Of a stretch of DNA of 49,815 bases, positions 11,701 to 41,408 are shown piece by piece (the first letter of the stretch is position 1; each line of letters starts with the position of its first letter). The translations under genes and the position numbers were made by a program. Source of the stretch: a virus; IMG/VR virus record IMGVR_UViG_3300032240_001810, positions 1-49,815 of that record; one strand, 5' to 3'. The notes beneath the pieces were generated by a model. It had not been told where the DNA came from. It saw only the letters and a list, made by a program, of their open reading frames with translations, and searched no databases.

Positions 11701-11714
11701 CTATACTTTTTTCT

Positions 11715-11721
11715 ATAAATA
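11715..11721 (-). promoter_or_regulatory. Candidate late promoter motif TATTTAT
   Basis: Minus-strand CTATTTATAG, 14 nt before the ATG of the large baseplate gene at 11700. It lies in the 38-nt gap after the tape measure stop. Confidence 0.4.
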
Positions 11722-11738
11722 GAATAGAAATAATTTTA

Positions 11739-13712
11739 TTACACGGCTGTTAGACCATAATCCGACGCAACTTTTGCAATATTTTCTCTTAACACCCTTA
11801 AAGTGTCATCGTTATCTAACGCTTTCAATACCGCAGTGTTTACTTCAGGATTATTTGTTTCCGCCTTAACAGTTAATTCAATTGTGTGTTTAATTTCTCT
11901 AACTTGTGATGTATTGTTATTTGCAGGTAAGGGTGTAGGTGGTGGAGTTATATTATTATTATTACTATTACTGTTACTATTTGGAACTCCGCCATTTGTT
12001 GCAGCTTGTGGGTTTACTGTTTGTTCATTTGATTTTTTTTCACCCCCTCCTAACTCAACCTTTAACAAAGACAGTCCAAGAGTTAAAACGTCTAAAGCTT
12101 TTTTTCCACTTGTCGCAACTTCTTCAAGATTAACCCCAAAATTTTTAGCTGTCGATTCTGCAAGGTCTAAACCAAGTAAAAAAGCACTCATTGCAGATTT
12201 CACTGTGTCATTTTTAGCAAGGTTTTCTTGTTGAGTAATAAGTTCTCCAAATGTTCCAAAGGTTCCAGTTAATATATTATTAAGACTTGTTTCAAGAGTT
12301 CCTACATCAGTAATTGTACCATTTATCACTTGTTCAAATAATTTAAATACACTTCCTACTGCGGTATCTAAATTTTTATTTTCAGTTTTTAATGAAAATG
12401 TTTCATTAGCCGGTTTTAAAATCTCAGCTTGTGACTTTACAGCTTCTTTTAAAAAATTATTCCCGTCGTTGGATATTGCAAACTGAGTGGCAATAGTCGC
12501 TTGATATGACGCATTTTGAGCTAATAAAGTATTAGCAGCACCTAATTGCTCTTTAGCAATGTCAACCAATTCTTTTTGAGGTTCAACAAGATTTTGTTGA
12601 TTTTTTAATGCTTCTTTATCTGCCTCAGTAAGGTCACCTAATGTTTTTTCTAACACTTTACCATCAGCACTTGTAAATTTAACAGTATAATCTCCTTTTG
12701 CTTTATTAAATTCCGCTAAATTTGCAATCATCATTTTTTCGTCTTCAGAAATATTACCAAGTGGTCTAAAATTAATTTCACCCAATTTTTTTTCCATCTT
12801 AGCGGATTCCAAAGCCATTTTTTCAAATTCACTTCTATCAATACCTAAGGCACTTGCAACTTCTCCAAGTTGTCTTCTTGCCTCAGGCATAATTTGGAAC
12901 TTACCTGTTTTTTCATCAAATTTTGTAAACGTTTTGGATAATTCAGATAATTGGTTTTGTAACTCAGGTACATTATTTTGAGCCAAATCCATTAATTTTA
13001 ATGGGTCAAGTAAAGCCCCTGAAGTCGCTCCCAACCTTTGTAAAGTTGCTGCAACATCCATAGCAGCCTCAGGTGAAAATAACTTGTCCGCAAGATTAAG
13101 AGTTTGATTCATATCAACTCTCATAGACGCAGCTTTTGCTGCCATTTTTGCCATTCCTTCAATACCATTACCAAAACCAAATCGGTTCATCTTATCTAAG
13201 TTGGCAACAACCATTGATGAAACCGCTTGAGCATTAACTCCTAAACTATTGGCAGTATGATAAACAGTTTTCATTTCTTCACTGATATGTGTAGTTTCCA
13301 TACCAGCATTTCTAAAAGCCGTTTCTAAAGTTTTTACCGCAACACCTGATACTTGCGAAACGGCATATAAATTTTCAATATTTTCAGTACTAAGAACTAT
13401 TGTTCTATTTGTTGATTCAAGAAATTCTTTTTGTAACACATTAATATCACTTTGTTTACCACCCATTAACGCGACCTCAGTAACCGCTCTACCTAAATCC
13501 TGTTTTAAAAGTTGTGAGTATTGTGAAGTAACACCCATACTTTTAACAAGTGTGGACATTTCTCTGTCCATTTTTGTTAAATTTTCAGCAGAACTAGTTA
13601 CCGCGGATTTTATACCATCGTTTACTTGAAGTAAATTTAACGCCGATTTTAAAACATCTCTATAACCTTGTCCAGTTTGTTCTTGACTAGGGTCTGTGTT
13701 ATTTTGAAACAT
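11739..13712 (-). CDS. Probable tail tape measure protein
   Basis: A 657-residue, mostly helical protein in the canonical tape measure position: after the tube and assembly chaperone genes and before the baseplate and hub genes. The N-terminal ~350 residues are long amphipathic helices with tape-measure-like phrases (ENLYAVSQVSGVAV, NSLGVNAQAVSSMVVANLDK, EGMAKMAAKAA). Residues ~550-610 are a Pro/Asn/Ser linker (GGVPNSNSNSNNNNITPPP). A small C-terminal domain follows. At about 1.5 Angstrom per helical residue it would give a tail near 0.1 micrometre, similar to T4. An antisense open frame at 11803-12234 is a by-product of the repetitive linker. Position and helical content support the call; there is no unique motif. 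Confidence 0.65.
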   Translation of the reverse strand: MFQNNTDPSQEQTGQGYRDVLKSALNLLQVNDGIKSAVTSSAENLTKMDREMSTLVKSMGVTSQYSQLLKQDLGRAVTEVALMGGKQSDINVLQKEFLESTNRTIVLSTENIENLYAVSQVSGVAVKTLETAFRNAGMETTHISEEMKTVYHTANSLGVNAQAVSSMVVANLDKMNRFGFGNGIEGMAKMAAKAASMRVDMNQTLNLADKLFSPEAAMDVAATLQRLGATSGALLDPLKLMDLAQNNVPELQNQLSELSKTFTKFDEKTGKFQIMPEARRQLGEVASALGIDRSEFEKMALESAKMEKKLGEINFRPLGNISEDEKMMIANLAEFNKAKGDYTVKFTSADGKVLEKTLGDLTEADKEALKNQQNLVEPQKELVDIAKEQLGAANTLLAQNASYQATIATQFAISNDGNNFLKEAVKSQAEILKPANETFSLKTENKNLDTAVGSVFKLFEQVINGTITDVGTLETSLNNILTGTFGTFGELITQQENLAKNDTVKSAMSAFLLGLDLAESTAKNFGVNLEEVATSGKKALDVLTLGLSLLKVELGGGEKKSNEQTVNPQAATNGGVPNSNSNSNNNNITPPPTPLPANNNTSQVREIKHTIELTVKAETNNPEVNTAVLKALDNDDTLRVLRENIAKVASDYGLTAV

Positions 13713-16209: not shown

Positions 16210-19200
16210 TTAGATATTTTCAAACGATGCTCCTGTTGGAGTAATTAAGAACTCAATGTCAATGAACTCAAGAGCTTTAGTTGGTTTGATGTAAATCTTA
16301 CCTACTAATTGGTTAGCGTCTAAGTCTTCAGGTGTGTTTTGAACTGTAACTCTAAAGTCGTACAAACCTCTGTCTCTTCTAATCGAATCTAAGATTGGAT
16401 TAACTGAATCTAAGAATTGTTGTCTTACCAAGTTGTCGTTTTGTTCAAATAACAATCTTACTGCTACTGCTGAAATTAACTTACGAGCTTGTAACAATAA
16501 TCTTCTTACATTTATTCTATCAAGAGCAGATTGTCTAATTTGAAGAGTTTTATTACCCCAAATTACAGTTCCAACATCGTTGAAAGTTGCGATTGGGTTA
16601 ATTCTTCCTTTGTAAAGAGTGTCTCTATCTTCTTGAGTTAATCTCTTTCTTGCTCTAATTGCATTTACAACACCTCTTGTGTAACCCGCAGTTGCGAACC
16701 AAGGAAACGCTATATTATCTGTTAACGCTAAGTTACGAGTAACTTCAGCAGTTGATGGAATATAGATTTGTGTATTGTTTACTGTATCACGAGTAAGAAC
16801 CCATGGATAGTAAGTTGCCGTGTAGTTAGAGTCAATTCCCGTATTTTCTAGGTTATCAACCGCCTCTTGTGGGTAAATTAAATTATCCATTGAAGTTGAT
16901 GGCTGGTACAAGTTAAAATCAGGAGTCGTGCAAATATAAATTGAATCAGCTCTACTGTTTTCAACAATGTCAATTGTTGCAGAAACTAAATCACCATTGT
17001 TAACATAATCAACACCAGGAGTTACAAGAACATTGATGTTAGTTATTTCAGGATTTGCAAATGACTGTACACCTAACAAGTATGCGTAATAGTCAGTATT
17101 AGCGTAATCAACTGTGTTATCACCAACTGTGATTTGTTTAAACGCTCCCCATCCTGTTGAGTCTGTGTAAGGTGCACAAGACGAAGCTCCTTGTTTATAA
17201 CCTGAGTTACCTAATTGGAATCTATCGGCATTTGTTCTATATTCTCTATAAATGTCCCATCCGTCAAAACCACCTTGTACCAAGAAAGTAAACTTACGAG
17301 AGTATAAGAAGTAATATGGATTTGTTTGTGATGTAGGTTCAGAACTAAATGCTCCCGTTCCAACATCAAATGCCGTTTGACCACTGTTTTGATAAACATT
17401 TGCAATTGTAACTGCAGTTGCCCCTGAATCCATGTGGAAACCTTTTGTAACATTTGGCCAATAAACATGTGATGGTTCAGTACAAGTTGTTGTTAATGGA
17501 TTTGGCATTCCTTTGTATTGGAAGAAGTCAGGGTCATATCCTGGTGAATCAGATGAAAATGCAACTGATGATGAAATACCCAAATAAGTTTTTCTAATAT
17601 TGTCACCAGAACTTGACACGCTATTAGAACCACCTGCGGTTGTTCCAAATGGTGGGTTATAAATTACCTCTCCAGGGTAGTCATATTTTGTTTTGAATAT
17701 TTGGAATGGTGATTTAGACCCTGAATAAGTTCTTGTTACAAAACCTTCAAATCCACACGGTAACGCATCTATTGGAGCTTCTTGGTTAACTTCTACAAAA
17801 ATGTACTTTGACATCACTGCGTATTCACCATCAGATGAACCAACTTTTTTAGCAATATAGTTGTTTTCTGCTGGGTCTAAACTACAATTAGTAAATTTTT
17901 CTAAAACCACAGGATTCGCATCCGTGTCAAAGAAATTTCTTACAATTAAATCAAATGTACCATTGTTAAATGAAATGTTCGCAATTGAAACTTTAATTTC
18001 AGTATTTGATGAATTACCATCTGCAATTGTATAAACTTTGAATAATCTATAAACTAAATTACCTCTTAATTCTGATACAACCCAAGGAGATTCAGCGGTT
18101 TGATATTTTTCAAGGTAAAAACCAATAGATGATATACTATTATTTCTAGCTTCAGCTAATGATAATAATGTACAATTTAATCCTCTAATAAATCCTTTAT
18201 TATATCCGTAACTTAATAATGTCGGATATCTTTCTTCAACAAACAAAGGAACTTCCTCTTTATCTTTAGCAAAGTTTTCAACACCAAATACTTTTGATAC
18301 ATAATTAGCGTTTGCCGGTGTAAATGAAGTTTCAAATTGGAAATTTGAATTCTCATAAGTTGTACCTGAAATTAAAAATGTACTAAATGGATTTTTAGTA
18401 ACACCCGAATAAGCTCCTGTACAAATCATTTGAACTTTTGAAGTACCTGTTACTTGGTAATTAGGTCCGTGTTGAGTTGATGAATAGTTTGAAATACCTC
18501 TTGAACGTAATGTTGCAACAATTAAATTATTATATCCTGAATAAGTTAAACCTGAAAAGTTATAAATATTACCAGTTATAGTACCACTATAAGCCCCTGT
18601 AATTGGGTTACCTGACATCGCCCCAATTCTACTGTAAAAAGAATATCCATTATAATTTTCACCTGAAGTTGGAGGTGTAAATGTCGCGTAATACCAAGAA
18701 TCATTAGTTTCAGCACAGTAATTAATACTTGATGCACTTATTGAGTCAACACCAAATACATTAGTTGATGCTGAATAACCCGCAATAATATTAGAGTTTA
18801 CTTGAGACCCTGATACCGCCCCAAAATAGTATATTGAACTTGCCGATGTTGACGGAGTTGTCACAATACTATAAATTTGACTTTGTAAGTCAGAATAAAT
18901 TGTTGATGTACCACCATTATAAGTTGTATAAGGTGTTGTAGAATTTGTAATTCCTGCAGGTAATCCTGTAATGGTTACTGTCGCAGTTGATGCGGTTGTT
19001 CCTGTAAATGTTGCGGTAAATGATGTAGGGGTTCCCGTTAACGCAACTGTATTACAATTAACATTTGCAACTGTTTTAATTGACCATGATGGTCCTGCGT
19101 CATAACCCGATAATCCTAATACTCTTGTCACAAACAATTGGTTAGATTGTTGTAAATATGATTTAGCGATGTACGCAGCTTCATACTTTGGTATCTGTGT

Positions 19201-20727: not shown

Positions 20728-21239
20728 TATAATCCTCTAAATTCATTTTCCATCACAGGTGATGCGTTTATTGTTCTATAAAACGGCTTATATCCTGCGT
20801 ATGTGTGTTTGTTATCTGAAACAACACGTCCATCATTATTAACTACATAATACCTAACTCTACTTTCAGTTTCGTAATATGCAATATAATCACCATATTC
20901 AATATCAATATCTAATTCATCTAAATGTTTTTGATAAACTGAAATTCTGGCATTACCTGGTTCAAGTTGATTAATTTTACTTGTACCAAGAAATTTATTT
21001 TCAGGTGCAACAATTTGTAGATAAGCCTTGAACTCAACAGGAGGTAAAAATTTGATTCCATCCACTTGAGCTTCACCGTAGACATCATCAACATTTGTTT
21101 TCTTTTTATCCACTTTATACAATATAAGAGTAAAGTTCATATCACCATTTAACCATTCCATGCCCATTGAAACATCCAAATTATAGTCTTCTTCTCCAAA
21201 AAATTTACCTAATCTTGTTATCGGAACTATTCTATTCAT
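20727..21239 (-). CDS. Neck/head-closure protein, probably T4 gp14-like
   Basis: A 170-residue beta-rich protein beginning MNRIVPITRLGKFFGEEDYN. It has VDDVYGEAQ, then a PPVEFKAYLQIVAPE strand and DIEYGDYIAYYETESRVRYY, the layout of head-closure proteins that join connector to tail. It is co-transcribed with the gp15-like gene (one-base overlap), and its ATG overlaps the stop of the HNH gene. With gp13 encoded nearby on the other strand, the set gp13-gp14-gp15 is complete. It is shorter than T4 gp14 (256). The fold class is likely; the exact T4 name is inferred. Confidence 0.55.
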   Translation of the reverse strand: MNRIVPITRLGKFFGEEDYNLDVSMGMEWLNGDMNFTLILYKVDKKKTNVDDVYGEAQVDGIKFLPPVEFKAYLQIVAPENKFLGTSKINQLEPGNARISVYQKHLDELDIDIEYGDYIAYYETESRVRYYVVNNDGRVVSDNKHTYAGYKPFYRTINASPVMENEFRGL

Positions 21240-21874
21240 ATTATTTTGTTACCTTTTTTCATATTATCTCTCCACGATAAGGGTTGTAAATTTGAATAAT
21301 GACATAAATTGTATAACTCATCTTTATTTTTGGCATATGATAATGGGATAATGTGGTCAATTACCCACTTACTTTCACCATACCCATAATTATCCCAACC
21401 CATCCATGTGTCAAATTTTTTTTCAATATACTCTTTCAAGTAAGTAGGGGTGCAACCAACAATTTCAAAAGTTTTTTTACTTTTTTCTGTTTGGTTAAAA
21501 TATCTTCTTACAGATTTTCTTAGTTGATTTGTTAATTTAAAATGTCCATCATTGTCAAGTTTTTTTTTGGTTGACCTTTTTTTACTAATTCTAACTTTTT
21601 CTTTATTTTGTTCTCTGTATTTTTTAGCACTTTCTAAAACTTTTTCTTTATTTTTTTCTTTATACTCTTTAGCCTTTTCTAAAACTTTTTCTTTATTTTT
21701 TTCGTAATATTTTTTTTTAGTAACTTTAATCAAATCTTGTTTTTCAATCCTTTCATTTTTTCTGCAAAATTTACAAACTGACCTATGTCCACATTTTGTT
21801 TTTGAACATTTATCAAACTCACACAATAATTTTTTCATGTGGCATTTTGAACATTTTTTTATGTTAGTCATCAT
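21236..21874 (-). CDS. HNH endonuclease with zinc-finger N-terminus (homing-type)
   Basis: I start this gene at the ATG at 21874 (MMTNIKKCSKC), not at the upstream ATG at 21952, because the first 26 residues of the longer frame are low-complexity. An N-terminal zinc ribbon (CSKC...CKFC) is followed by a Lys/Glu repeat (KEKVLEKAKEYKEKN repeated) and a C-terminal HNH motif (WVIDHIIPLSYAK, then NLQPLSWRDNMKKG with the H-N-N ligand pattern). Such free-standing endonucleases spread between phages by cutting cognate loci. It sits between neck genes and the helicase, with a stop-start overlap with the gp14-like gene. A late motif lies 4 nt upstream of the start. Confidence 0.85.
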   Translation of the reverse strand: MMTNIKKCSKCHMKKLLCEFDKCSKTKCGHRSVCKFCRKNERIEKQDLIKVTKKKYYEKNKEKVLEKAKEYKEKNKEKVLESAKKYREQNKEKVRISKKRSTKKKLDNDGHFKLTNQLRKSVRRYFNQTEKSKKTFEIVGCTPTYLKEYIEKKFDTWMGWDNYGYGESKWVIDHIIPLSYAKNKDELYNLCHYSNLQPLSWRDNMKKGNKII

Positions 21875-21878
21875 ATTG

Positions 21879-21885
21879 ATAAATA
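21879..21885 (-). promoter_or_regulatory. Candidate late promoter motif TATTTAT before the HNH gene
   Basis: Minus-strand AAATATTTATCAATATG, 4 nt before the ATG at 21874 (7 nt before the second ATG). Transcription from here would also cover the gp14- and gp15-like neck genes. Confidence 0.35.
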
Positions 21886-21931
21886 TTTCTTTTTTGATTA
21901 TTATTATAGTTGTATAGTTAATTAAAATAAT

Positions 21932-23692
21932 TTGACAACTTCTACAGGACATTTAAGTGTTGAACAGCAAGCAATATCTATTCTTGAAAATTATCAGGGG
22001 TCAAATAACTATATCCTTAAATTAAAAAAACAGATTGAGTCAAACAAGAAGTATCTTCCAACAAGAGCTCAATGTGATTACGTTATTGACTACAATTCAG
22101 TAGTTCCAAAAGTTGCCAAGAAATGGGTCGAAATTGACTCATACTTTTCTCAAAAACTTGTTGAGGATAATCCATTCATTAAGGAACCTGATAAAATCTA
22201 TGTTGAAAAGATTTTAATTGAAAAAGATAAGTCGTATCACATTTGGGGTAAGATTTTTAGTGCCGAGACCATTCACGATTTTTGGATACCAAAAGCTGCT
22301 GTAATTAAACAATATACTGAAAACTTGGTTGATGTTGATTACACTAAATATGAAAACCGTCCGCCACTTGCTCACCAAAAAGAAGCTATAGAAAAATTAT
22401 TAAAGAACGATAAGTTCATTTTAGCCGACGATATGGGTTTAGGGAAAACGACTTCGGCGGTGATTGCATCATTAGAAAGTGGTTCAAATAAAATTTTAAT
22501 TATTTGTCCGGCATCTCTTAAAATAAATTGGGAAAGAGAAATTAAAAACTATACTGACAAATCGGTTTATATCTGTGAGGGTAAGAAGTTTGAATTGGCA
22601 GATTACGTAATTGTAAACTACGATATCCTTAAAAACTTTCACGACCCAAAAGATAAAGAAAACTCAATAATCCTTAATTCAAAATTTGATTTGGTCATTA
22701 TTGATGAAGCACATTATGTTTCAAACGCTCAGGCTCAAAGAACAAAGATTATAATGGATGTTACCAAAAACATTAAAAAACTTTGGTTATTAACGGGAAC
22801 ACCGATGACTTCTCGTCCAATGAATTATTATAATATCTTAAAACTTATTGATAGTCCTGTGAGTCAAAATTGGCAAGCATACGCAATTAGATATTGTGGT
22901 GGGTATCAGTTTAGAGTGGGTGGTAAAAAGATTTGGAATGTTACAGGAGCATCTAATTTAGAAGAATTAAGAGAAAGAACTTCACGTCAAATCTTAAGAA
23001 GATTAAAGACTGAAGTTTTAGATTTACCTGAAAAAATTATTACTCCTGTTTATCTTCGTTTAAAATCGAGATTGTATGAAGGATTGATGGGTGAGTATTA
23101 TGATTGGTATAATAATAGACAAGATGAGTCAAGGTCTTTATCAGTTCAGTTTTCAAAACTTATGAAAGTAAGACAGGTTATTGCTGAAGAAAAAATATCT
23201 ATCACAATTGAACTTGCTGAGAACATTATTGAACAAGGTAAAAAAGTTATTATTTTTAGTAACTTTACCGAACCTTTAAAAAAGATACACGAACATTTTG
23301 GGAAGAAATCTGTTTATTTAGACGGGTCAACATCAAAACCTGCGAGACAAGATGCGGTTGACAAGTTCCAAGAGAGTGATAAAATACAAGTTTTTTGTGG
23401 TAACATGAAAGCAGCAGGGGTTGGATTGACACTTACCGCTGGTGAGGCCGTTATTATGAATGACTTATCGTTTGTACCTGCTGAACATGCGCAGGCAGAA
23501 GACCGCTCATATAGATATGGACAAAAAAATTCAGTTTCAATATACTACCCATTATTTGATAACTCTATTGAAGGAGTTATTTATGACATTCTTACAAGGA
23601 AGAAACAGATAATTGGTACAGTTATGGGAGATATAGACGAAAGTTCTGTAGATATTGTTGAACAAATACTTAACGAAATCAATAGTAAGTAA
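21932..23692 (+). CDS. SNF2-family DNA helicase/annealing helicase (SMARCAL1-like)
   Basis: A 586-residue superfamily 2 ATPase. Residues ~150-340 hold RecA domain 1: LADDMGLGKT (Walker A), IICPASLKINWERE (Ia), DEAH at 'VIIDEAHYVSNA' (II) and LLTGTPMTSRP (III). Residues ~430-560 hold domain 2: VIIFSNFTEPLKKI, GLTLTAGEAVIMNDL and the arginine-finger motif AHAQAEDRSYRYGQ. This set is characteristic of SNF2/HARP-type annealing helicases, which remodel forks and may replace T4 UvsW. The start is TTG at 21932, since the frame closes at 21923. It has no late motif, so early expression is likely. It ends 13 nt before the SOD fusion gene. Confidence 0.9.
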   Translation: MTTSTGHLSVEQQAISILENYQGSNNYILKLKKQIESNKKYLPTRAQCDYVIDYNSVVPKVAKKWVEIDSYFSQKLVEDNPFIKEPDKIYVEKILIEKDKSYHIWGKIFSAETIHDFWIPKAAVIKQYTENLVDVDYTKYENRPPLAHQKEAIEKLLKNDKFILADDMGLGKTTSAVIASLESGSNKILIICPASLKINWEREIKNYTDKSVYICEGKKFELADYVIVNYDILKNFHDPKDKENSIILNSKFDLVIIDEAHYVSNAQAQRTKIIMDVTKNIKKLWLLTGTPMTSRPMNYYNILKLIDSPVSQNWQAYAIRYCGGYQFRVGGKKIWNVTGASNLEELRERTSRQILRRLKTEVLDLPEKIITPVYLRLKSRLYEGLMGEYYDWYNNRQDESRSLSVQFSKLMKVRQVIAEEKISITIELAENIIEQGKKVIIFSNFTEPLKKIHEHFGKKSVYLDGSTSKPARQDAVDKFQESDKIQVFCGNMKAAGVGLTLTAGEAVIMNDLSFVPAEHAQAEDRSYRYGQKNSVSIYYPLFDNSIEGVIYDILTRKKQIIGTVMGDIDESSVDIVEQILNEINSK

Positions 23693-23705: not shown

Positions 23706-25211
23706 ATGAAATCGTTAAATATAGTATCAGAGTCATTAGTTAGTCGTTTGTTAGGTGAGGAAACTCAACCTGAAACCAAATTTTTTATTAACGAAATGAA
23801 AACCATTGGTATTGATAAACTACCGTATGGATATGCATCATTAAGAAGATTTATTGACCCTGAGACAATGAAGTTTCATTATCAAAAACATTACAAAGGG
23901 TATGTTAAAAAATTAAATTCAGCTCTTCGTAAAAAAGATTATGGTGATGTTGAATTGGAAAATATTGTTAAACAGATATCAAAGTATAATACAACAATAA
24001 GAAATAACGCAGGTGGAGCATTTAACCACGCATTGTTTTGGAAAATGTTATCACCTACTCCACAAAAACCAAGTGGAGAAGTATTTGAAAAGATTGTTAA
24101 ACAATTTGGAACATATCGTAACTTCAAAACTAAATTTGAAGAAATTTCAAGAAAACGATTTGGTTCAGGATGGTGTTGGTTAGTATTAACTGATACAGGT
24201 AGATTAAAAGTAATGTCCACCTCAAATCAAGATAATCCACTTATGAATATAATAAACAAAGGCGGTTTTCCGTTGTTAGGTTTGGATTTGTGGGAACACG
24301 CTTATTATTTAAAATACCAAAACAAAAGAGATGAATATATTGAAAACTTTTGGGAGGTAATCAATTGGGAATTTGTTAACGAGTTATACAAATCAAAAAC
24401 TGAAAAAAAATTGAACGAATCAATTTCAACAAAAAAACTTTTATACGAAAACGTATCTGATTATTCAGATATTTTTAGTAACAACAAAAATGTTCTTTGG
24501 ACTTATAGAAGATGTATTGACAATACGTTGAAAAGAGTTTTGTCCGATAAATGGAATGAAAACAATCAACACTCTGAAGGTTCATCTTCAGGTATCTACG
24601 ACTTGGAACAACCAGGTCGTTCAGTAATCAATAAATTAAACACAAATTATATTGGGTTTAAAATTTTAGTTGATGATTTAAATCAGGTACTTACAAGGTT
24701 AAATAAACCCACATTAAATTTTATTGGGGTAACGCCTTCACAACAAGTGGAAGAAATAAATAAATTTTGTGAATATTTGAGTTTTTTTGGTGAAAGAATT
24801 TTTAAAGGGTCTAAAACTCTTGATAAAATTATGAAACTTTTGAAAAGAACACATGACAAAGGCGGTCAACTTGAGGAGTATGTAGCAAAAAAAATCAATC
24901 AAGAATTTGGTGAAGGAACTGCAGTTGTTGTGGGTAGTTTAGGTTCAAAAGAAGATTTTGCAGGAACTGATTTGACAGTAAATTTTGATAACAAAATACA
25001 AAACGCTCAAGTTAAACCAATTTTAAATATGGAAATAATTGACGGTTTTTATAATATAAAAATCAAAGGGTTTGTTAAAAAATTTAATACCGACTTATTA
25101 ATTTTCTCAAATATTAACAAAGAAGTTTATATTTTTAAAAACAAAACTGTTGCTTTTAGTTCAAGTATGTTTAAAATCCCAACACAAGATTTAATTTATA
25201 CTGTGAATTGA
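23706..25211 (+). CDS. Fe/Mn superoxide dismutase fused to a PD-(D/E)XK nuclease-like domain
   Basis: This protein has 501 residues, against ~200 for a normal Fe/MnSOD. Residues ~36-235 form a complete SOD: His58 (MKFHYQKHYKGYV), His108 (NAGGAFNHALFW), Asp194 and His198 (GLDLWEHAYYLKY), plus GSGWCWLV and Gln175 in NQDNPL, the manganese-type second-shell glutamine. All four metal ligands are present, so it should be active. Residues ~240-370 are helical and unknown. Residues ~385-500 look like a restriction-endonuclease fold: Glu390 (GQLEEYVAKK), Asp422 (GTDLTV) and the Q-x-K pair at 435-437 (AQVKP), as in Mrr-type enzymes. The N-terminal ~30 residues (MKSLNIVSESLVSRLLGEE) resemble a cleavable capsid-targeting leader. 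The SOD part is certain; the nuclease part is a pattern match. Confidence 0.85.
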   Translation: MKSLNIVSESLVSRLLGEETQPETKFFINEMKTIGIDKLPYGYASLRRFIDPETMKFHYQKHYKGYVKKLNSALRKKDYGDVELENIVKQISKYNTTIRNNAGGAFNHALFWKMLSPTPQKPSGEVFEKIVKQFGTYRNFKTKFEEISRKRFGSGWCWLVLTDTGRLKVMSTSNQDNPLMNIINKGGFPLLGLDLWEHAYYLKYQNKRDEYIENFWEVINWEFVNELYKSKTEKKLNESISTKKLLYENVSDYSDIFSNNKNVLWTYRRCIDNTLKRVLSDKWNENNQHSEGSSSGIYDLEQPGRSVINKLNTNYIGFKILVDDLNQVLTRLNKPTLNFIGVTPSQQVEEINKFCEYLSFFGERIFKGSKTLDKIMKLLKRTHDKGGQLEEYVAKKINQEFGEGTAVVVGSLGSKEDFAGTDLTVNFDNKIQNAQVKPILNMEIIDGFYNIKIKGFVKKFNTDLLIFSNINKEVYIFKNKTVAFSSSMFKIPTQDLIYTVN

Positions 25212-25234: not shown

Positions 25235-26365
25235 ATGAATACAATAATAGCAGAACCATACAGAAGTCAACTATATACAAAAGTTAGACACGTACTCGGA
25301 GCACCAATTCGTTCAATTGAATTAGAAGATGAACAAATGGATTCAATCTTGGAATTTTCTATTGGGGATTATTCCCAATATGTTCAAGATTGGTTAATTG
25401 AATCACAATGGACTTCATTATACAATCTAAATTTAGATACTCAGTCTTTATCAAGAGCATTTGTAACTAAAAGTTTAGATTACGAAAATAGATACGCACA
25501 AGCATACTCTAAAATAGTTGGATTACAATCATCACCTCTTGGGGATTGGGAACTTAAAAAAGATTATATCACATTAGTCCCAAACCAACAAATTTATGAA
25601 ATACCCGCAGGTCGTGAAATTAATGAATTATTATGGTTCACACCGGCAACATTAAATAATATTTTGTTTGACCCATGGAGTTTTGGAGCTTTAGGTGGTA
25701 CAGGTATTGGAGGTCCAGGTGGTTTTGGCCAAATGGGCGGTTCTGGTTCATACTTTATGACATCGGCATTTGACATGTTATTAAGAATGCAAGAAATTAA
25801 TATTCAAAGAAGAATTATTGGTGGTGATTTAACTTATCGAATTACAGGTTTACCTAATGGTAAAAAGGCGATTCATTTAATGCAAACGCCTGGTGGTAAG
25901 TTTGACTTTGGTAATTCATCACTACACCATTCACAAGTTTGGTATTGGTATTACGATGTCGGCCCTCAGGATAGAGATGCTTGTTTAGCCGCAAACCCTG
26001 ATATTATTAAACTTCCTTCAGATGTTCCTTTCAACTCAATTGCTTGGTCAGATTTAAATGAACCAGCTCAACAGTGGGTTAGAAGATATTTTGTTGCAAG
26101 TTGTAAAGAAACATTATCAAAAGTTAGAGGAAAATATTCGGGTAACTTAAAGACACCTGACTCTGAGCTAACTATGGATTATGCGACTTTAGCAACTGAA
26201 GGTAAAGATGAAAAATTAAAATTAATTGAAGAATTGATTGGTGCCGATGGTAGATTAACAAGATTAAGACCTGAAAAAGTAATGGAGCGTGAGGCATTAA
26301 TTGCTGAAAATCTTAATAAACAAATGAAGTTTAGAGCGTTCCCAAGAAATATGTATGTAATATAA
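25235..26365 (+). CDS. Neck protein, T4 gp13-like connector
   Basis: A 376-residue protein. The N-terminus (LGAPIRSIELEDEQMDSILE, then FSIGDYSQYVQDWLIE) has the helical 'ieL.deqmd..i..' pattern of head-tail connector proteins of the gp13/gp6-adaptor type. A Gly-rich loop lies at residues ~150-175 (GGTGIGGPGGFGQMGGSG). The C-terminal half has PAQQWVRRYFVASCKETLSK. In T4, gp13 joins the portal after packaging. It is on the opposite strand to gp14/gp15 but within 4 kb. The ATG overlaps nothing, and a late motif lies 16 nt upstream. Confidence 0.65.
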   Translation: MNTIIAEPYRSQLYTKVRHVLGAPIRSIELEDEQMDSILEFSIGDYSQYVQDWLIESQWTSLYNLNLDTQSLSRAFVTKSLDYENRYAQAYSKIVGLQSSPLGDWELKKDYITLVPNQQIYEIPAGREINELLWFTPATLNNILFDPWSFGALGGTGIGGPGGFGQMGGSGSYFMTSAFDMLLRMQEINIQRRIIGGDLTYRITGLPNGKKAIHLMQTPGGKFDFGNSSLHHSQVWYWYYDVGPQDRDACLAANPDIIKLPSDVPFNSIAWSDLNEPAQQWVRRYFVASCKETLSKVRGKYSGNLKTPDSELTMDYATLATEGKDEKLKLIEELIGADGRLTRLRPEKVMEREALIAENLNKQMKFRAFPRNMYVI

Positions 26366-30258: not shown

Positions 30259-33200
30259 TTATGGTTTTACTGTAATTGTCCAACTATATGGAGAATTTTT
30301 AAGTAATAAATAATATGGGTTAGTTAATCCTCCAGTTGGGGACTCTGGTTGAGTTGCGGAAGTACCGGATAAATAAAGTGTTTTATTATATAAAGTATTT
30401 GCGGTAGCTATAGTGGCAACATCTTGTAAAATGTAATCTACCGCCGCAGTTTTAAGATTGGTATTTCTAAAATCTAAAAGTAACATATTGGTCATTGATG
30501 AGAATGTTTTTGTCCATCCTGTCAATAATGATGACCCCGCAATATTGAATGTTCTTAAAGTTGATGGGAAATTTCCTCCAAATATCTGTGAACTATTTGT
30601 AAAGTTATTACTTCCTATGGTTAAACTAGTTAAAGAAGTATGACCTGATAAATTTGTTGTCCCTGTCAATATATTATTGTATAAACTTATTGATGTGGCA
30701 CCTGATGTATAATTAAAATCAAAATTGTTTAAAAGATTACTCTCAAAACTTATTGTTTTAATAGATGTTGGAAATTGTGTTGTCCATCCTGATAATCCAA
30801 CACTATTCAGTAAAAATGTATTTAATGACGTTGCTCCTGTTAAAGATACTGACCATTGTGGTACAGACTGTAAAGTTGCTGATGAGTCACTCATATCAAA
30901 ATATACACAACTTGTTGGGAAGTTACTTGTGTATCCTGTTATATCATTTGAATCTAATCTTAATGTTTGAATACTATTAGGGAATACCGGAGGTAATGAT
31001 GTCAAATTATTTTTATCTAACCTTAACGTTGTTAACGATGTACACGCAGATATAGTATTTGTAAATGAACTTAAAACTAAATTACTATTTAAATCTAAAT
31101 TAGTTAAATTCGTATTTGTCAATAAATCAATATCAAAATTACGGATTCTATTTGAGCTTAGAAGGGCTTGTTGAGCTGATACTGGTAATGTATAAGTCCA
31201 ACCTGATAATAATGTATTACCATAAACATATATATTTTTAAGACCTGTACAACCTGATAAATAATTGGTTACTGTAAATGTTGGTAATGAAGTATTATTT
31301 ATTACAAAGAAATCTCTAAATGTTGAACCATTTGGAACTGTTACATTTAAATTAGTTAAACTATTATTACCGTATAGATTTAAAGTTCTAAATGAACTAC
31401 TTCCTGAAAAATTATAGGTGAAACCTGACATATCAGAATTATTAATTAATAATTCTCTAAAACTTGGTAATAATGCTAAGTTAGTTGTCGGAGTAAATTC
31501 AAAATTTTGAGAACCAGGTGCGTTTGTACTATAGATATAAAAATCAAGAAGTGAGTTAGGTAAACTAGAACTAAAATTGGTTAAAGTTGTATTTGATAAT
31601 AACACTTTAGTTACTAAGGTAAATGCACTAAACGTGTATGAATTTTCAATAATATCTGAAATATTATATAAATTAATTTCACAAATATTATTTGTAGACG
31701 TTACGGATGAAAGTTGGAAATTTTCAAATGTCGCAGTATATAAGTTAGAATCATACGTATGATTGTACGAATATGCTGAAAATGATGGTGAATATGGTGG
31801 ATTGGTAATATTAACAGGAAGTGTTGATGTATCACCCCAATTAATATTAAAACTACTATTAGGAGCCGTGTTAAAAGATGCAATTAATGGGTTTGTACCA
31901 ACAATATTTTTTACTTGAAAATACGGAGGGATTGGAGGAACTGTTGTTTGAGTTGGAGTAATAGTTGGTGTTGGTGTATTGGTTTTAGTTACGGTATTTG
32001 TTGGTGTTGGTGTATTGGTTTTAGTTACGGTATTTGTTGGTGTTTGAGTATTAGTTGGTGTAGGTGTTGGTGTTGGTGTTGGTGTTGGTATTATTGTTGT
32101 AAAAGATGAAGTTAAACAAGATGGTACTTGTGACGCTCCATATACTGGATGTCCTGTATTACTAACAAATGTAATGTTATAAGGTGAATTAGTATTAACA
32201 GAATACACATCACCTCCCCCTGTCGCCACATAAATATTCCCCGAGTTTTCAAATATTCCCCAAGGGTCAACAACAGTTGGGTTAAGAGTTATAGTTAACT
32301 CTAAATTACCTGTTAAATAATCATACTGTAATAAATATATATTAATACTTTCATTAGTTGTTACTAAAAGTTTATTATTAGTTGTTAACAAAATATCACC
32401 AGAAACAGAGTGTCCTATAGGTAAATCAAATTTATATGTTGAAATAGGTGTGTTTGTTGTAATGTCCATTTCATAAATTGATTGTGGAACATACCCGTTT
32501 GTAACAATAAGTGTTGTATCATTTATTACTCCTAATCCAGCACCTATTGAAAATGGGAAATTTAAATCTCTACTATAAGTTGCTGTAAATGGATTTAAAG
32601 TAATATTCCATTCTCTAACAGAGGTATAACTTGTTGTCCATAATTTATTTTGAGTGTGACCAATATCAATATTATAAATTGTATAAGGTACTGGTAATAA
32701 CGTACTAGTATTTGTACTAAAGTTATAACTATAGATGTCATAAATATTGTCAACATAAATTACTGAACATAAAGGAACAACTAACGCTCCTGAGCTTTGA
32801 GTAACTGTAGGGGTTGGAGTTTTTGTTGGTGTTATTGAAATTGTCGGAGTTTGAGTTGGAGTTTTAGTTGGGGTTGGGGTTTGAGTTGGAGTTTTAGTCG
32901 GAGTTGGAGTTTTAGTTGGGGTTTGAGTTGGAGTTTTAGTCGGAGTTGGAGTAACTGTAGGTGTGATAGTTGGGGTTGGGGTTTTAGTTGGTGTTTGAGT
33001 ATTAGTTGGTGTAAGTGAAGGTGTTAGTGAAGGTGTTGGTGTTGGAGTTTTAGTTGGTGTGATAGCAGGTGCTTTACAACATGGTCTATCAATAATATAA
33101 GGGTCATTAGACGGATAAGAGTAAGAATTTAAACTAAAACTACTAAGAACACTTACATAAATTTTTTCAGGTAATGGTATAATAACAATACCCTGAGATG

Positions 33201-33489
33201 ATTGTTTTAAAAACTGAACTAAAAACTTACCTTCATTTTTTGTTTCTTTACTTGTAAATTGGTAATTCACATAATAAGTAATATCTAAAGGGTTAACAGT
33301 AGATGCGCTTGTTGTAATATAACATTCTTTAGACGCTACAATATATTTATTTTTAATCTCATCATATACTGAAATTAAAATTGTATTACCCGAAATATTT
33401 TCATTTAAACCAAAATCACTTCTTCCATTTTTTGATATCTCAATTTGGAAAATTGGTAACGTTGAATTTTTCTTAATAAACCATTCCAT
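30259..33489 (-). CDS. Multidomain adhesin: paralogous N-domain, Thr-Pro linkers, beta-propeller, PKD-like and LRR domains
   Basis: I start at the ATG at 33489 (MEWFIKKNSTLP), which aligns with the start of the next gene; the longer frame begins at TTG. The 1076 residues divide as follows. Residues 1-~130 are an N-domain shared with the 122-aa neighbour. A Thr-Pro linker (PTPTKTPTQTP repeats) covers ~141-228. A beta-propeller-like region covers ~235-455 (WGIFENSGNIYVATGGGDVY). A second linker covers ~461-516. A PKD-like domain covers ~525-610 (FNINWGDTS). About 18 leucine-rich repeats run to ~1040 (TSLTTLRLDKNNLTSLPPVF). The C-terminus is YYLLLKNSPYSWTI. It looks like a virion fibre that binds the host, with the N-domain fixing it to the particle. 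The receptor is unknown. Confidence 0.7.
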   Translation of the reverse strand: MEWFIKKNSTLPIFQIEISKNGRSDFGLNENISGNTILISVYDEIKNKYIVASKECYITTSASTVNPLDITYYVNYQFTSKETKNEGKFLVQFLKQSSQGIVIIPLPEKIYVSVLSSFSLNSYSYPSNDPYIIDRPCCKAPAITPTKTPTPTPSLTPSLTPTNTQTPTKTPTPTITPTVTPTPTKTPTQTPTKTPTPTKTPTQTPTPTKTPTQTPTISITPTKTPTPTVTQSSGALVVPLCSVIYVDNIYDIYSYNFSTNTSTLLPVPYTIYNIDIGHTQNKLWTTSYTSVREWNITLNPFTATYSRDLNFPFSIGAGLGVINDTTLIVTNGYVPQSIYEMDITTNTPISTYKFDLPIGHSVSGDILLTTNNKLLVTTNESINIYLLQYDYLTGNLELTITLNPTVVDPWGIFENSGNIYVATGGGDVYSVNTNSPYNITFVSNTGHPVYGASQVPSCLTSSFTTIIPTPTPTPTPTPTNTQTPTNTVTKTNTPTPTNTVTKTNTPTPTITPTQTTVPPIPPYFQVKNIVGTNPLIASFNTAPNSSFNINWGDTSTLPVNITNPPYSPSFSAYSYNHTYDSNLYTATFENFQLSSVTSTNNICEINLYNISDIIENSYTFSAFTLVTKVLLSNTTLTNFSSSLPNSLLDFYIYSTNAPGSQNFEFTPTTNLALLPSFRELLINNSDMSGFTYNFSGSSSFRTLNLYGNNSLTNLNVTVPNGSTFRDFFVINNTSLPTFTVTNYLSGCTGLKNIYVYGNTLLSGWTYTLPVSAQQALLSSNRIRNFDIDLLTNTNLTNLDLNSNLVLSSFTNTISACTSLTTLRLDKNNLTSLPPVFPNSIQTLRLDSNDITGYTSNFPTSCVYFDMSDSSATLQSVPQWSVSLTGATSLNTFLLNSVGLSGWTTQFPTSIKTISFESNLLNNFDFNYTSGATSISLYNNILTGTTNLSGHTSLTSLTIGSNNFTNSSQIFGGNFPSTLRTFNIAGSSLLTGWTKTFSSMTNMLLLDFRNTNLKTAAVDYILQDVATIATANTLYNKTLYLSGTSATQPESPTGGLTNPYYLLLKNSPYSWTITVKP
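31943..32100 (-). repeat. Thr-Pro linker repeat 2, with a 36-nt tandem duplication
   Basis: Low-complexity DNA encoding Thr/Pro repeats inside the adhesin. It includes two adjacent perfect copies of a 36-nt unit (gttggtgttggtgta...) starting at 31964 and 32000, encoding 12 residues each. Such repeats change length easily by slippage. Confidence 0.75.
32808..33065 (-). repeat. Thr-Pro linker repeat 1
   Basis: About 258 nt of degenerate repeats (agttggagttttagttgg type on plus) encoding PTPTKTPT-type residues of the adhesin. They separate the virion-anchoring N-domain from the propeller. Confidence 0.75.
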
Positions 33490-33490
33490 A

Positions 33491-33859
33491 TTAAATAGAT
33501 ACGTGACTATCACCAATTTTTATTGTAAGTTTTTCTCTGATTGGTAAAATATAAGTTCCTGTATCAGTAATAAAAACAAACTCTCCTTCATAAAGTCCTT
33601 CTCTATTTGTATCTATTGAAGTGAATTTATAATAAACATAGTATTCTGTCTCAGCATTTGGGTCAATAAATGTCTTTTCAACAAACCCCCCTTTCATATT
33701 TAGAATCTTATATCCTCCTGTCTTAACATCTATCATGGAAAAATAAATCAACGAGTTTTCTATCAATGACATAAACTCTGTTATGTCAGCAATACCATCT
33801 TTAACCACTTGCATTTTAAGAACAGGTAGTGTTGCTCCTTTGTTAATAAAAAATTCCAT
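33491..33859 (-). CDS. Small virion protein paralogous to the adhesin N-domain (122 aa)
   Basis: The protein aligns over its length with residues 1-~130 of the adhesin. MEFFINKGATLPVLKMQVVK matches MEWFIKKNSTLPIFQIEISK, and EYYVYYKFTSIDTNREG matches TYYVNYQFTSKETKNEG. It ends PIREKLTIKIGD, like PLPEKIYVSV in the adhesin. The fold looks like a BppU-type beta sandwich that attaches receptor-binding parts to baseplates. It ends one base before the adhesin ATG, so the two are coupled. A late motif lies 13 nt upstream. It may cap the same attachment sites without carrying a fibre. Confidence 0.65.
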   Translation of the reverse strand: MEFFINKGATLPVLKMQVVKDGIADITEFMSLIENSLIYFSMIDVKTGGYKILNMKGGFVEKTFIDPNAETEYYVYYKFTSIDTNREGLYEGEFVFITDTGTYILPIREKLTIKIGDSHVSI

Positions 33860-33886: not shown

Positions 33887-35557
33887 TCAGCATTCTTTTC
33901 TTAACTCTGCGGAATAGTGTTCAAATCTATCGTGTTCAGTTGGGGTCATAAGAAGAATACCTGGGTTTAATTTACCCTGAACTGTCTGTTGGAAGTTGTG
34001 AGACATAATTGTTTGCTCAAAAGGTGACTGAAACTTTGTTTCTAAATAACATTTATAACTTCCTTCTTTTGATAATAAAATTGGCCAGTTACATATATAA
34101 ATTTCACCTGACGCATATGGAATACCTTTGTGTGATTTAATTTCTTTAAACTGTGTTCTTGGAGCATTTGGGTCAAACCCCATTTGCGGTAATCTTTTGT
34201 TTTTTGGCCAATGTTGTTCTCTAAAATGTTGTGGAACGTTATACCACGCAAATTGTATATCATTCGACCCGTAAAATTCACTAAAGTTTAATTTTAAAAA
34301 ATCAAATTTTTCTTTTTGAATTATTTCTAACGTTTTGTAATAAAAGTCTTTTGAATATCTTGAAAAACCATTTCTACATACTGATTGTTCCGTTGTATAA
34401 AAAAACATGTCATCTTCAAAAAATAACATATAATCTAAACTTGTTTCTTCAAAATGTTCAGCAATCCATTGTCTACCACCCGTTATACCTAAATTATCTT
34501 TTTTGATATGTTCAAATCCATATTCTTCACAAATTGTAATGTATTCTTCAGTTGTTGATAAATCAGTTGAATTATCTAAAAGATATTTTTGTGTTTTATC
34601 AATATAATTTCTATCAAATTTTAACATTGAATCAATCAGTGTTTTAAATTGTTTTGGTGAATTAAATGTTATGACGTAAAGAGCGACTTTATTAATATCA
34701 GTTTCTTGTTCAACTATTTTATACTCACTCTTTTTAACTAATTCATCATTTTTTAAATCTTCAAAAAACTTTCCAAATAATCCATTTGATTCAATTTCAA
34801 AATAATTTACAAATTCAGTTAACTTATAAATCATAATTGAAAATATTGACTCCTCGGTTCCCATATAACCCTGTGATAAAGTTTCATTCAATAAATTATA
34901 ATACTCACCATTAATGTGTGATATCGTTTCTTTTGGACCTCCAAATAACCCTCCACGAGCAACCTTCTTTACATCGTCGTTAGCCCAATTGTTAATTGAT
35001 GGATATGAAAATCCATGTATTTCATTATTTGCTTCATATGGGAAACAAACAAATGTGAATTTATCAATATGTTTGCTTAAATTATTTAAAACTTTATCGT
35101 GTGTAAAATATCCTGGATGAACCGTGTTTGTTAATCCTGCATCAATCCAAAATAAAAATTGTGAATCAAACTTATCAAAAATCCTTGCATCATTTAATAA
35201 AAACATTTTGGACATAACAAGAGGATTATAGATTTCTAATCTGCCTTGTGTTGACTCCTTTAACCACCCTGATTGATTATACCATTCAGGATTTGTTCTT
35301 ATCTTTTGAATTTTATCATAAAACTCATTCTGTATAAACCAACTCTTATCTCTTAAAATAAATTGAGTATTACTTTGTTCTCTCCTTTCCCAAACAAATT
35401 CTTCCAATTCTTTTTCACCAAAAATTATTAAGTTTTCTTCAACCTTTAGTAGTTGTTCAAATTTTTCTAAATAGTGTGAAAAAGAACGAGACCAACCTTC
35501 TTCAAGATTTTCTCTTCCAATATTCCACAATCCTGTAACTAATGTAATATTACTCAT
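33887..35557 (-). CDS. Two-domain glycosyltransferase: HtrL/YibB-like plus GT-A (GT2-like)
   Basis: A 556-residue fusion. Residues 1-~270 follow the HtrL/YibB family (LVTGLWNIGRENLEEGWSRS, NPLVMSKMFLLNDARI, FLFWIDAGL). Residues ~285-556 form a GT-A domain: VALYVITFNSPKQFKTLIDS, then DNLGITGGRQWIAEHF and the metal-binding FFEDDMFF. Both halves probably transfer sugars from nucleotide donors. It is the last gene of the sugar operon, and its ATG overlaps the stop of the GT2 gene by 4 nt. Acceptor and sugar cannot be deduced. Confidence 0.75.
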   Translation of the reverse strand: MSNITLVTGLWNIGRENLEEGWSRSFSHYLEKFEQLLKVEENLIIFGEKELEEFVWERREQSNTQFILRDKSWFIQNEFYDKIQKIRTNPEWYNQSGWLKESTQGRLEIYNPLVMSKMFLLNDARIFDKFDSQFLFWIDAGLTNTVHPGYFTHDKVLNNLSKHIDKFTFVCFPYEANNEIHGFSYPSINNWANDDVKKVARGGLFGGPKETISHINGEYYNLLNETLSQGYMGTEESIFSIMIYKLTEFVNYFEIESNGLFGKFFEDLKNDELVKKSEYKIVEQETDINKVALYVITFNSPKQFKTLIDSMLKFDRNYIDKTQKYLLDNSTDLSTTEEYITICEEYGFEHIKKDNLGITGGRQWIAEHFEETSLDYMLFFEDDMFFYTTEQSVCRNGFSRYSKDFYYKTLEIIQKEKFDFLKLNFSEFYGSNDIQFAWYNVPQHFREQHWPKNKRLPQMGFDPNAPRTQFKEIKSHKGIPYASGEIYICNWPILLSKEGSYKCYLETKFQSPFEQTIMSHNFQQTVQGKLNPGILLMTPTEHDRFEHYSAELRKEC

Positions 35558-36117
35558 TCTGTATGTCTAACTTTATAGATTATGTAATCAACAAATTCGC
35601 TTTCAAACATTTGGCCTATTTCTTCATAAAAAATAACATCACCAAAAACATCTTCTTGGAACATTGGTAGATTGTGTGTATTTGGAATTACTCCCATACA
35701 TTTACCTACATTACCTCTTGTGAAATCTTTTAATCTCCAATTAACATCCCCTAACCAATTGTGTTTGAATATATATAATTTGTTTTTATCTTTAACAGTT
35801 TCTTTAATTACTTTAAATGCTTCTTCGGTGTATCTATCGTCATCATCGGCAAACATAATAAAATCACCTTCTAATGAGTTAATATTTTCATTAATTAATG
35901 GATGTCCGTATTTCCACTTTTGTTCCCCTTGATTTAATATGTGATTAATTTTGAATTTAAGCTCATATCTTGATAATACTTCTGAGACAAATTCGTGATT
36001 AATATCAGATATTATTGTAAAAATATCTGTTGGGTCTAATTGGTCTTTGAACGACTCAATCAATCTTGGTAGGGTTTCTCTACCAATAGAAGTACAAACA
36101 ATATTGAGACTAAACAT
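35554..36117 (-). CDS. Family 2 (GT-A) glycosyltransferase, short
   Basis: A 187-residue protein: LNIVCTSIGRETLPRLIESF at the N-terminus, then INSLEGDFIMFADDDDRYTE with the DxD metal site, and a C-terminal part with EDVFGDVIFYEEI. This is a compact GT2-like core without a membrane segment. It overlaps its neighbours on both sides (8 nt upstream, 4 nt downstream), so it belongs to the sugar operon. The sugar and acceptor are unknown. Confidence 0.8.
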   Translation of the reverse strand: MFSLNIVCTSIGRETLPRLIESFKDQLDPTDIFTIISDINHEFVSEVLSRYELKFKINHILNQGEQKWKYGHPLINENINSLEGDFIMFADDDDRYTEEAFKVIKETVKDKNKLYIFKHNWLGDVNWRLKDFTRGNVGKCMGVIPNTHNLPMFQEDVFGDVIFYEEIGQMFESEFVDYIIYKVRHTE

Positions 36118-36964
36118 AACACTTCTCCTTTACATATTTTGTCTCGTCATAAATGTCTAAAATGTCTAAAAACGCCTTTTGTAAATCTAACCAATCACCA
36201 AACTCAAATGCGTAACATTCATCTAAATGTCTACCTGTAAGGACTGTAAGAACCTCTTGTTCACTAATAAGTTGATTATGTGTTTCTAAATAACTTGTAA
36301 AAATGTTTAAATATCCGTCTAAAACATGTCTAACTTTTTCTGACGTTCCACCAAATAGACATCCAGGAACAACTTTTAATTCAACACCGAATAGTTGATT
36401 AAACTTGGCAACCGTTTCATAATTCATAACAATTGAGTTACCTTTCAAATGGATAAATCCATGTTGATTTATCTTATCAACCACCTTATCCAAAAAGTTT
36501 TTTGAGTTAATTAACGGAGCCATATAATCTCTCCATCCATCGTGGCATGAAGTTCCAATTAATCCGGCATCAATCCAAAAGATATTATCACAATCATGTG
36601 ACTCATCAATTAAAAATTTAAGTTTGTTTAATACAACTTCTAAATAATTGTTAACACAATAAATTCTATCGTAATTAATACCACCCGATAATTCTTGTGT
36701 TCTAATTCTATCAATCAACTCACAAGCTTCAGATGTATTTAATTCTTTAAACTTGAACTCAACATTTGGAAAATTAAATTCATACTTTAAATTAAACTTA
36801 TCATACGAATTTTGGTCTGTGTAAAATACGTAATGATATTCAGGGTGAATAATATTTTTTATGGTCGCAACCAATAATGGAAAGTTTTTATATCTTTCAC
36901 TGTTAATTCCGTCAACATATTTTAATTCGTAAATTGCTGAGATTACTTTAGTACCATTTGTCAT
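36110..36964 (-). CDS. HtrL/YibB-like glycosyltransferase
   Basis: A 284-residue protein related to the N-terminal half of the 556-residue fusion. Shared features are KVISAIYELKYVDG, HYVFYTDQNSYDKF, NIFWIDAGLIGTSCHDGW and PGCLFGGTSEKVRHVLDGYL (the fusion has GGLFGGPKETISHINGEY). The family is bacterial and linked to surface polysaccharides; its chemistry is not settled. It overlaps the DAD-type transferase gene by 17 nt. Two HtrL-type proteins in one operon suggest two related linkages. Confidence 0.7.
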   Translation of the reverse strand: MTNGTKVISAIYELKYVDGINSERYKNFPLLVATIKNIIHPEYHYVFYTDQNSYDKFNLKYEFNFPNVEFKFKELNTSEACELIDRIRTQELSGGINYDRIYCVNNYLEVVLNKLKFLIDESHDCDNIFWIDAGLIGTSCHDGWRDYMAPLINSKNFLDKVVDKINQHGFIHLKGNSIVMNYETVAKFNQLFGVELKVVPGCLFGGTSEKVRHVLDGYLNIFTSYLETHNQLISEQEVLTVLTGRHLDECYAFEFGDWLDLQKAFLDILDIYDETKYVKEKCYV

Positions 36965-37658
36965 GTTCGGCGTAAATAATGTTTAAAGATTTATTTGAAT
37001 TATTTCCAAGCTCTATCCCATTATAAAGTGATGAAAAACACATTTCGTCAATATTACCTGCGGGTATATTTCGTAACCCGTCATTTTTTTTATGTTCAAT
37101 ACATTTGTCCCATGTATCCAAAAATTGGATGAATTTATCTTTCTCAATATCCAAATACTGAATACAATCTTCAGGCATAATACCCAATTTTTCCTTGTCG
37201 GTTACAAAATCAAAAATACCTTCATAATGTAATAACCTTCTACCCAATTCACTATTAGATTGGATTTGTTCTAAAAAATTATAGGTAACAGGTCCTGAAA
37301 CTGAATTTTCAATAAATGAATTTAATATATTTTCCTCGTTAAATAATGAAGGGTTAACCCTCATATCAGCATCTACCAATATAACTTTGGTAAATCCTAA
37401 ACTAACCGAAGCTCTAACCGCATATCGTTTAACTGAAAAATCAAAATCATAATAGTTTTTTTGATAATCAAGATAATGTGAGTTAAATTCATTAACATTA
37501 AATGTTTTTACAAAATTTTTCTTTGTTATCATCTTCTCATTATCAGTTAAAACAACCAATGAAGGTTGATAAGGTAATAATGATATATCATCAATAAATC
37601 GGTTTACTTGTCCGTAGTAACGTTCACCGAAACAAAATGTTGCAAATGTAAAACTCAT
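36948..37658 (-). CDS. Putative GT-A glycosyltransferase (DAD motif)
   Basis: A 236-residue protein starting FTFATFCFGERYYGQVNRFI, with KRYAVRASVSLGFTKVILVD followed by ADMR (a DxD-type site) and a C-terminal GNIDEMCFSSLYNGIEL helix. The layout is that of small glycosyltransferases of the GT8/capsule type. It ends 17 nt inside the next gene and begins 2 nt after the stop of the GlcNAc-transferase-like gene. The class is likely; donor and acceptor are unknown. Confidence 0.65.
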   Translation of the reverse strand: MSFTFATFCFGERYYGQVNRFIDDISLLPYQPSLVVLTDNEKMITKKNFVKTFNVNEFNSHYLDYQKNYYDFDFSVKRYAVRASVSLGFTKVILVDADMRVNPSLFNEENILNSFIENSVSGPVTYNFLEQIQSNSELGRRLLHYEGIFDFVTDKEKLGIMPEDCIQYLDIEKDKFIQFLDTWDKCIEHKKNDGLRNIPAGNIDEMCFSSLYNGIELGNNSNKSLNIIYAEHDKWY

Positions 37659-37660
37659 AA

Positions 37661-38905: not shown

Positions 38906-38939
38906 AATCAAATCTTAATTAAAAATTAAAAAATATAAA

Positions 38940-41407: not shown

Positions 41408-41408
41408 A

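Follow-up and report, generated by a model that had tools for sequence, protein, structure and literature searches.

In phage T4, the internal head proteins carry N-terminal targeting propeptides that are taken off by the prohead protease gp21, which cuts after the motif (L/I)-x-E during head maturation (PMC9026906), and comparable motifs ending in Glu are used by other large phages (PMC5694885). Fusion to an internal protein has been used to package foreign proteins into T4 heads, and nucleases were among them (PMC9026906). A virion-borne superoxide dismutase (SOD) has also been described, since the A245R protein of chlorovirus PBCV-1 is the product of a late gene and is packaged in the virion, and less superoxide accumulates during PBCV-1 infection than with a virus without a SOD gene (PMC7019647). 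Stand-alone Fe/Mn SODs are further encoded by Vibrio phage 2.275.O and by the Pseudomonas phage MIJ3/PA5oct group.

The open reading frame (ORF) described here lies in a 49,815-nucleotide stretch of viral DNA (the whole stretch analysed, hereafter the window) and can be compared with each of these systems. Like T4 IPI, IPII, IPIII and Alt, it begins with an N-terminal leader ending in (L/I)-x-E and belongs to phages with a gp21-type protease and a gp23-type capsid protein. Unlike them, it has a longer leader (~30 versus 10-19 residues) and carries two enzyme domains with putative cut sites between them. With A245R it shares the property of being a viral SOD, but A245R is a Cu/Zn enzyme of unrelated fold from an algal virus and has no nuclease fusion. 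The stand-alone phage enzymes are members of the same Fe/Mn superfamily, but they are short and consist of one domain, their genes have different neighbours, and identities are 22-30%. No description of a SOD-nuclease fusion or of a phage-head SOD was found in the open-access literature, in agreement with the earlier note on this DNA, which had regarded the fusion as undescribed. We consider it rather probable that the ORF encodes a T4-type internal head (ejection-type) polyprotein, which the leader would direct into the head and gp21 would split into a SOD and a nuclease, both to be ejected with the DNA. Provided packaging is confirmed, it would represent a T4-type internal head protein with a new, multi-enzyme cargo.

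Table 1. Layout of the SOD-nuclease ORF and its two flanking genes (positions in the window; res, residues of the ORF product; the vertical bar marks a putative cut)
Feature	Position	Strand	Basis
Whole ORF: leader, SOD, linker, helical domain and PD-(D/E)XK-like domain, 501 aa	23706..25211	+	
Leader, res 1-30, predicted disordered, ends FINE|M; putative capsid-targeting propeptide	23706..23795	+	
Putative site 1, I-N-E, res 28-30, gp21-type (L/I)-x-E motif	23787..23795	+	Alignment columns
Fe/Mn superoxide dismutase, Mn-type, res 36-226, ligands H58/H108/D194/H198	23811..24383	+	Pfam, PDB sequences, invariance
Interdomain linker, res 234-250, predicted disordered	24405..24455	+	pLDDT <50
Putative site 2, L-N-E, res 236-238, gp21-type motif	24411..24419	+	Alignment columns
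Putative site 3, L-Y-E, res 246-248, gp21-type motif	24441..24449	+	Alignment columns
Helical domain, res 249-377, invariant GRS (304-306) and RIF (364-366)	24450..24836	+	Model, conservation
PD-(D/E)XK-like nuclease domain, res 378-501, E390/D422/Q435/K437	24837..25208	+	Structure matches, invariance
Upstream neighbour, SNF2/UvsW-like helicase (phrog_62)	21932..23692	+	13 bases ahead of ORF
Downstream neighbour, head-tail adaptor / T4 gp13-like neck protein (phrog_211)	25235..26365	+	

The ORF, which the earlier note had described as a SOD joined to an extra C-terminal half, was found exactly at that place and length. A scan of IMG/VR yielded at least 596 confirmed relatives, of which 80 were fetched; nearly all of these align with it from end to end, at identities from 97% down to 48%. 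An assembly artefact can be dismissed as the source of the fusion, since dozens of contigs carry such end-to-end relatives over this identity range. The gene belongs to large T4-like phages, very common and uncultured, with probable hosts in the Bacteroidota. Judged by sequence, the entry A0A6J5L953 ('superoxide dismutase', uncultured Caudovirales phage), which is 501 aa long and 93% identical over 253 columns of the C-terminal part, is a member of the same SOD-nuclease family; its name mentions the SOD alone, and neither the nuclease half nor the cut sites.

The N-terminal half is matched by Pfam Sod_Fe_N over residues 36-116 (1.2e-21) and by Sod_Fe_C over residues 122-226 (8.8e-41), both domains exceeding their curated cut-offs (138.5 and 77.4 bits against 20.9 and 27). 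MnSODs of known structure also match this half (best 1.7e-59, PDB sequences). The four metal ligands, namely His58, His108, His198 and Asp194, are invariant in all 86 SOD-bearing ORFs (the protein of the window included), as are His62, Tyr66 and Gln175, and the last of these lies within NQDNPL, at the Mn-type position. The Mn-type SOD with intact ligands that had been recognized before is thus confirmed, and the enzyme is predicted to be active. Because the closest cellular SODs are mostly from Bacteroidota (~46-57% identity), a Bacteroidota host or SOD donor is suggested.

For the C-terminal half, nothing convincing was obtained from Pfam, PHROGs, PDB sequences or GenBank phages, and no cellular homologue was found in a genome-collection scan using one peptide pattern. 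An AlphaFold2 model of residues 249-501, built with 27 relatives, reached a pLDDT of 92 and a pTM of 0.83, with pLDDT ~90 for the helical domain. The best structural match of the last ~125 residues is Archaeoglobus Hjc, with a Z of 8.3 over 105 residues (3.7 A), a value that can reflect merely a common arrangement and is suggestive of, not final for, a PD-(D/E)XK fold. NhoI, I-Ssp6803I and DpnI follow, so that nucleases occupy the top of the list. No substitution of E390, D417, D422, Q435 or K437 occurs in any of the 113 ORFs examined (86 SOD-bearing and 27 SOD-less); in the predicted structure E390 is located in a helix, D422 just ahead of a strand and Q435-x-K437 on the following strand. Q435 stands where an acidic residue before xK is usual, and Gln at this position is found in some families of the PD-(D/E)XK superfamily.

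With nucleases heading the list and invariant motif residues on the expected elements, we consider a PD-(D/E)XK fold of residues 378-501 very likely, and nuclease activity likely. The domain resembles Hjc, I-Ssp6803I, NhoI and DpnI in its predicted fold and in its E...D...QxK residues, but it differs from them in identity (9-14%) and in the additional ~130-residue helical domain, and its activity is a prediction. The earlier note had seen in this end the pattern of Mrr/PD-(D/E)XK nucleases; the superfamily is supported by the predicted fold and by the conservation of Glu390, Asp422, Gln435 and Lys437, whose spacing and places on the secondary-structure elements indicate only indirectly that they may cluster in space. 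The Mrr assignment is not supported, since among the families listed the Mrr model matched neither the window protein nor the C-terminal parts of 27 relatives. A domain with a predicted fold like that of residues 249-501 (TM 0.85, 19% identity) is also present in a 1113-aa uncultured marine phage protein (BFVD A0A8D9CCA0), which raises the possibility of other fusion partners.

In the full-length model, the lowest confidence is confined to residues 1-44 and the linker 234-250 (pLDDT <50 in both), and to a three-residue loop. We have scanned an alignment of 25 sequences of <80% identity for (L/I)-x-E, and the motif is conserved at four places only, namely residues 28-30 at the leader/SOD joint, residues 236-238 and 246-248 in the linker, and the catalytic LWE of the SOD (195-197, in LWEH). 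Site 1 is present in 25/25 sequences with seven kinds of middle residue, site 2 in 21/22, and site 3 in 24/25 with eight kinds of middle residue. Over the SOD-bearing set, E30 is kept in 86/86 and E248 in 85/86; in the 25-sequence alignment every letter in the E248 column is E while its neighbours vary, with L/I two positions before. Prediction of a site from the motif alone is weak, since it consists of two residues and a spacer. The leader and the protease-type sites at both junctions, which the earlier note does not mention, suggest that the SOD and the nuclease are freed separately in the phage head and do not act as a single fusion protein.

The SOD has been removed naturally in part of the family. 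Among 113 unique ORFs with the C-terminal domain, 27 are SOD-less, the SOD having gone in frame about three times. Well-supported branches in a tree built from the C-terminal domain force three switches between presence and absence of the SOD, and loss is the simpler reading because SOD-bearing members are found on both sides of the midpoint root. The leader, the linker cut site and the nuclease persist in 22 of these 27 ORFs, in which the (L/I)-x-E just ahead of the nuclease domain is kept (counted by eye). Two of the SOD-less ORFs (L175 and L177) have kept both junction sites, as SINE|MKKIEIEKLKSIISE|G, and L174 and most members of the large SOD-less clade have the leader followed directly by ILSE|S or VLSE|S and then the nuclease. 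Five have no site before the nuclease (L377, L410, L443, L444 and L448); those of them that the tree includes lie in one subclade, whose leaders are short or degenerate, as expected if the site serves leader removal. No other SOD was found in the four SOD-less records searched.

The order of UvsW-like helicase, ORF and gp13-like neck gene is kept wherever the fetched stretch spans both neighbours, with an additional endonuclease match between helicase and ORF at two SOD-less loci. The window is a 49.8-kb fragment without protease or capsid genes, both of which are seen in close relatives. A gp21-type protease (PF03420, Peptidase_S77) was detected in 4/7 and 7/8 of the relatives' records searched, and the others may be fragments. 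In two relatives' genomes, the propeptide of the gp23-type major capsid protein ends in SFLINE|A, the same motif that precedes the SOD as FINE|M or FINE|A, with cleavage predicted at both. The late-promoter motif TATAAATA was uninformative (13 matches versus 12 expected).

Several of these observations favour the head polyprotein. The (L/I)-x-E motif is conserved only at the disordered joints (apart from the SOD's own LWEH), relatives possess both a gp21-type protease and a capsid protein with the same motif, the SOD-less variants mostly keep the leader, the linker cut site and the nuclease, and the ORF adjoins a neck gene in conserved order. The N-terminal leader would direct the polyprotein into the prohead core, where cuts by gp21 behind the (L/I)-x-E motifs of the leader/SOD joint and of the linker between the two enzymes would set free a ~208-aa Mn-type SOD and a ~253-aa PD-(D/E)XK nuclease within the mature head. 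Both would then enter the host along with the phage DNA, where the SOD would clear superoxide otherwise harmful to the incoming genome or to phage enzymes, and the nuclease would attack DNA in the newly infected cell, our preferred guess being host, rival or defence DNA. In this model, we infer that the protein is packaged, cut and ejected and that its two enzymes are active, and likewise which DNA is the target. A role in guarding DNA or in acting against the host, as the earlier note had proposed, is plausible. The fuller picture, in which the head polyprotein of widespread aquatic phages with probable Bacteroidota hosts releases an injected oxidative-stress shield and a DNA attacker, has in our judgement about an even chance of being right. 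Other points speak against the head polyprotein: the gene ahead of the ORF is a replication/repair-type helicase, as would suit a protein of the cytoplasm; searched against the other genes of two genomes, the family's leader gave good matches only within the family itself; and a nuclease within the head would have to spare the phage's own DNA.

The helicase could instead point to a bifunctional fusion protein working in the cytoplasm, in which the nuclease would act with the UvsW-like helicase in recombination or repair, through Hjc-like cleavage of junctions, and the SOD would guard the DNA against oxidative damage, with nothing packaged or cut. The constant adjacency of the helicase gene, the joining of SOD and nuclease in most lineages, and the presence of a Holliday junction resolvase such as Hjc (Z 8.3) among the best structural matches would all suit such a protein. 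However, it leaves unexplained both why (L/I)-x-E sites are conserved only at the joints and why the leader and linker site survive the loss of the SOD, and a resolvase is probably already present, given endonuclease VII-like matches in 8/8 relatives' records checked. We regard it as unlikely. The same matches weaken a role of the nuclease as the phage's sole junction resolvase.

Less probable still is a protein that is packaged and perhaps cut, but whose nuclease works while the head is being filled, or on branched DNA packaged in it (gp49-like trimming), and not after ejection, the accessory SOD protecting the packaged genome in sunlit water. The adjoining neck gene and the Hjc-like fold are consistent with this proposal, as is an origin from aquatic metagenomes, to which the set of contigs points, whereas the endonuclease VII-like genes of the relatives argue against it, and so does the fact that T4 internal proteins of the leader type are mostly ejected (PMC9026906). 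An ordinary auxiliary metabolic SOD with an inactive nuclease-like tail gained by chance, for which the stand-alone SOD genes of other phages (about 180-200 aa) might be cited, is very improbable, since the fusion extends across the whole sampled tree, every sequence keeps the nuclease residues and the dispensable part is the SOD, not the nuclease.

If the head polyprotein is real, T4 capsid targeting would widen from single host-takeover proteins to a protease-released enzyme pair, and phages would have a counterpart of the virion-packaged SOD of chloroviruses, which would suggest superoxide as a barrier at the moment of infection. A natural leader peptide would also become available for loading enzymes into phage heads. 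The present analysis gives a name to an under-annotated protein family found in hundreds of environmental virus contigs, and its natural SOD-plus and SOD-minus relatives make the role of the protein directly testable.

Some further observations concern DNA outside the window. In G001 (222628-241540, for example the L288/L289 region) and G004 (11489-12175 and 17438-17911), about a dozen otherwise dissimilar ORFs begin with a common N-terminal tag, approximately MKK(I/V)IRLTESDLxxIVKRVIxE and ending in (I/V/L)-x-E. The tag pattern was matched by 17 ORFs, compared with a mean of 4 and a maximum of 10 after shuffling, and may represent a portable signal for capsid targeting; a loose resemblance to it is seen in the linker between SOD and nuclease (LNESxxLKxVLSE). 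Separately, a 454-aa ORF in L124 (180-1544, +) combines a nucleotidyltransferase-like and an M23-peptidase-like domain through a linker with LKE|S, as judged by eye, and is a possible second head polyprotein.

Within the window, an HNH/endonuclease VII-like gene (21236-21952, -) adjoins the helicase and is matched in some relatives' loci only; it is perhaps a mobile endonuclease. A run of glycosyltransferase-like and small-molecule enzyme-like genes occupies 33887-42278 (-), with 37661-38911 matching the phrog_24687 glycosyltransferase (8.8e-168). Finally, 30259-33516 (-) encodes a protein of 1085 aa that contains leucine-rich-like stretches as well as long repeats of the PTPTPTKTPT type and presumably serves in the virion or in adhesion.
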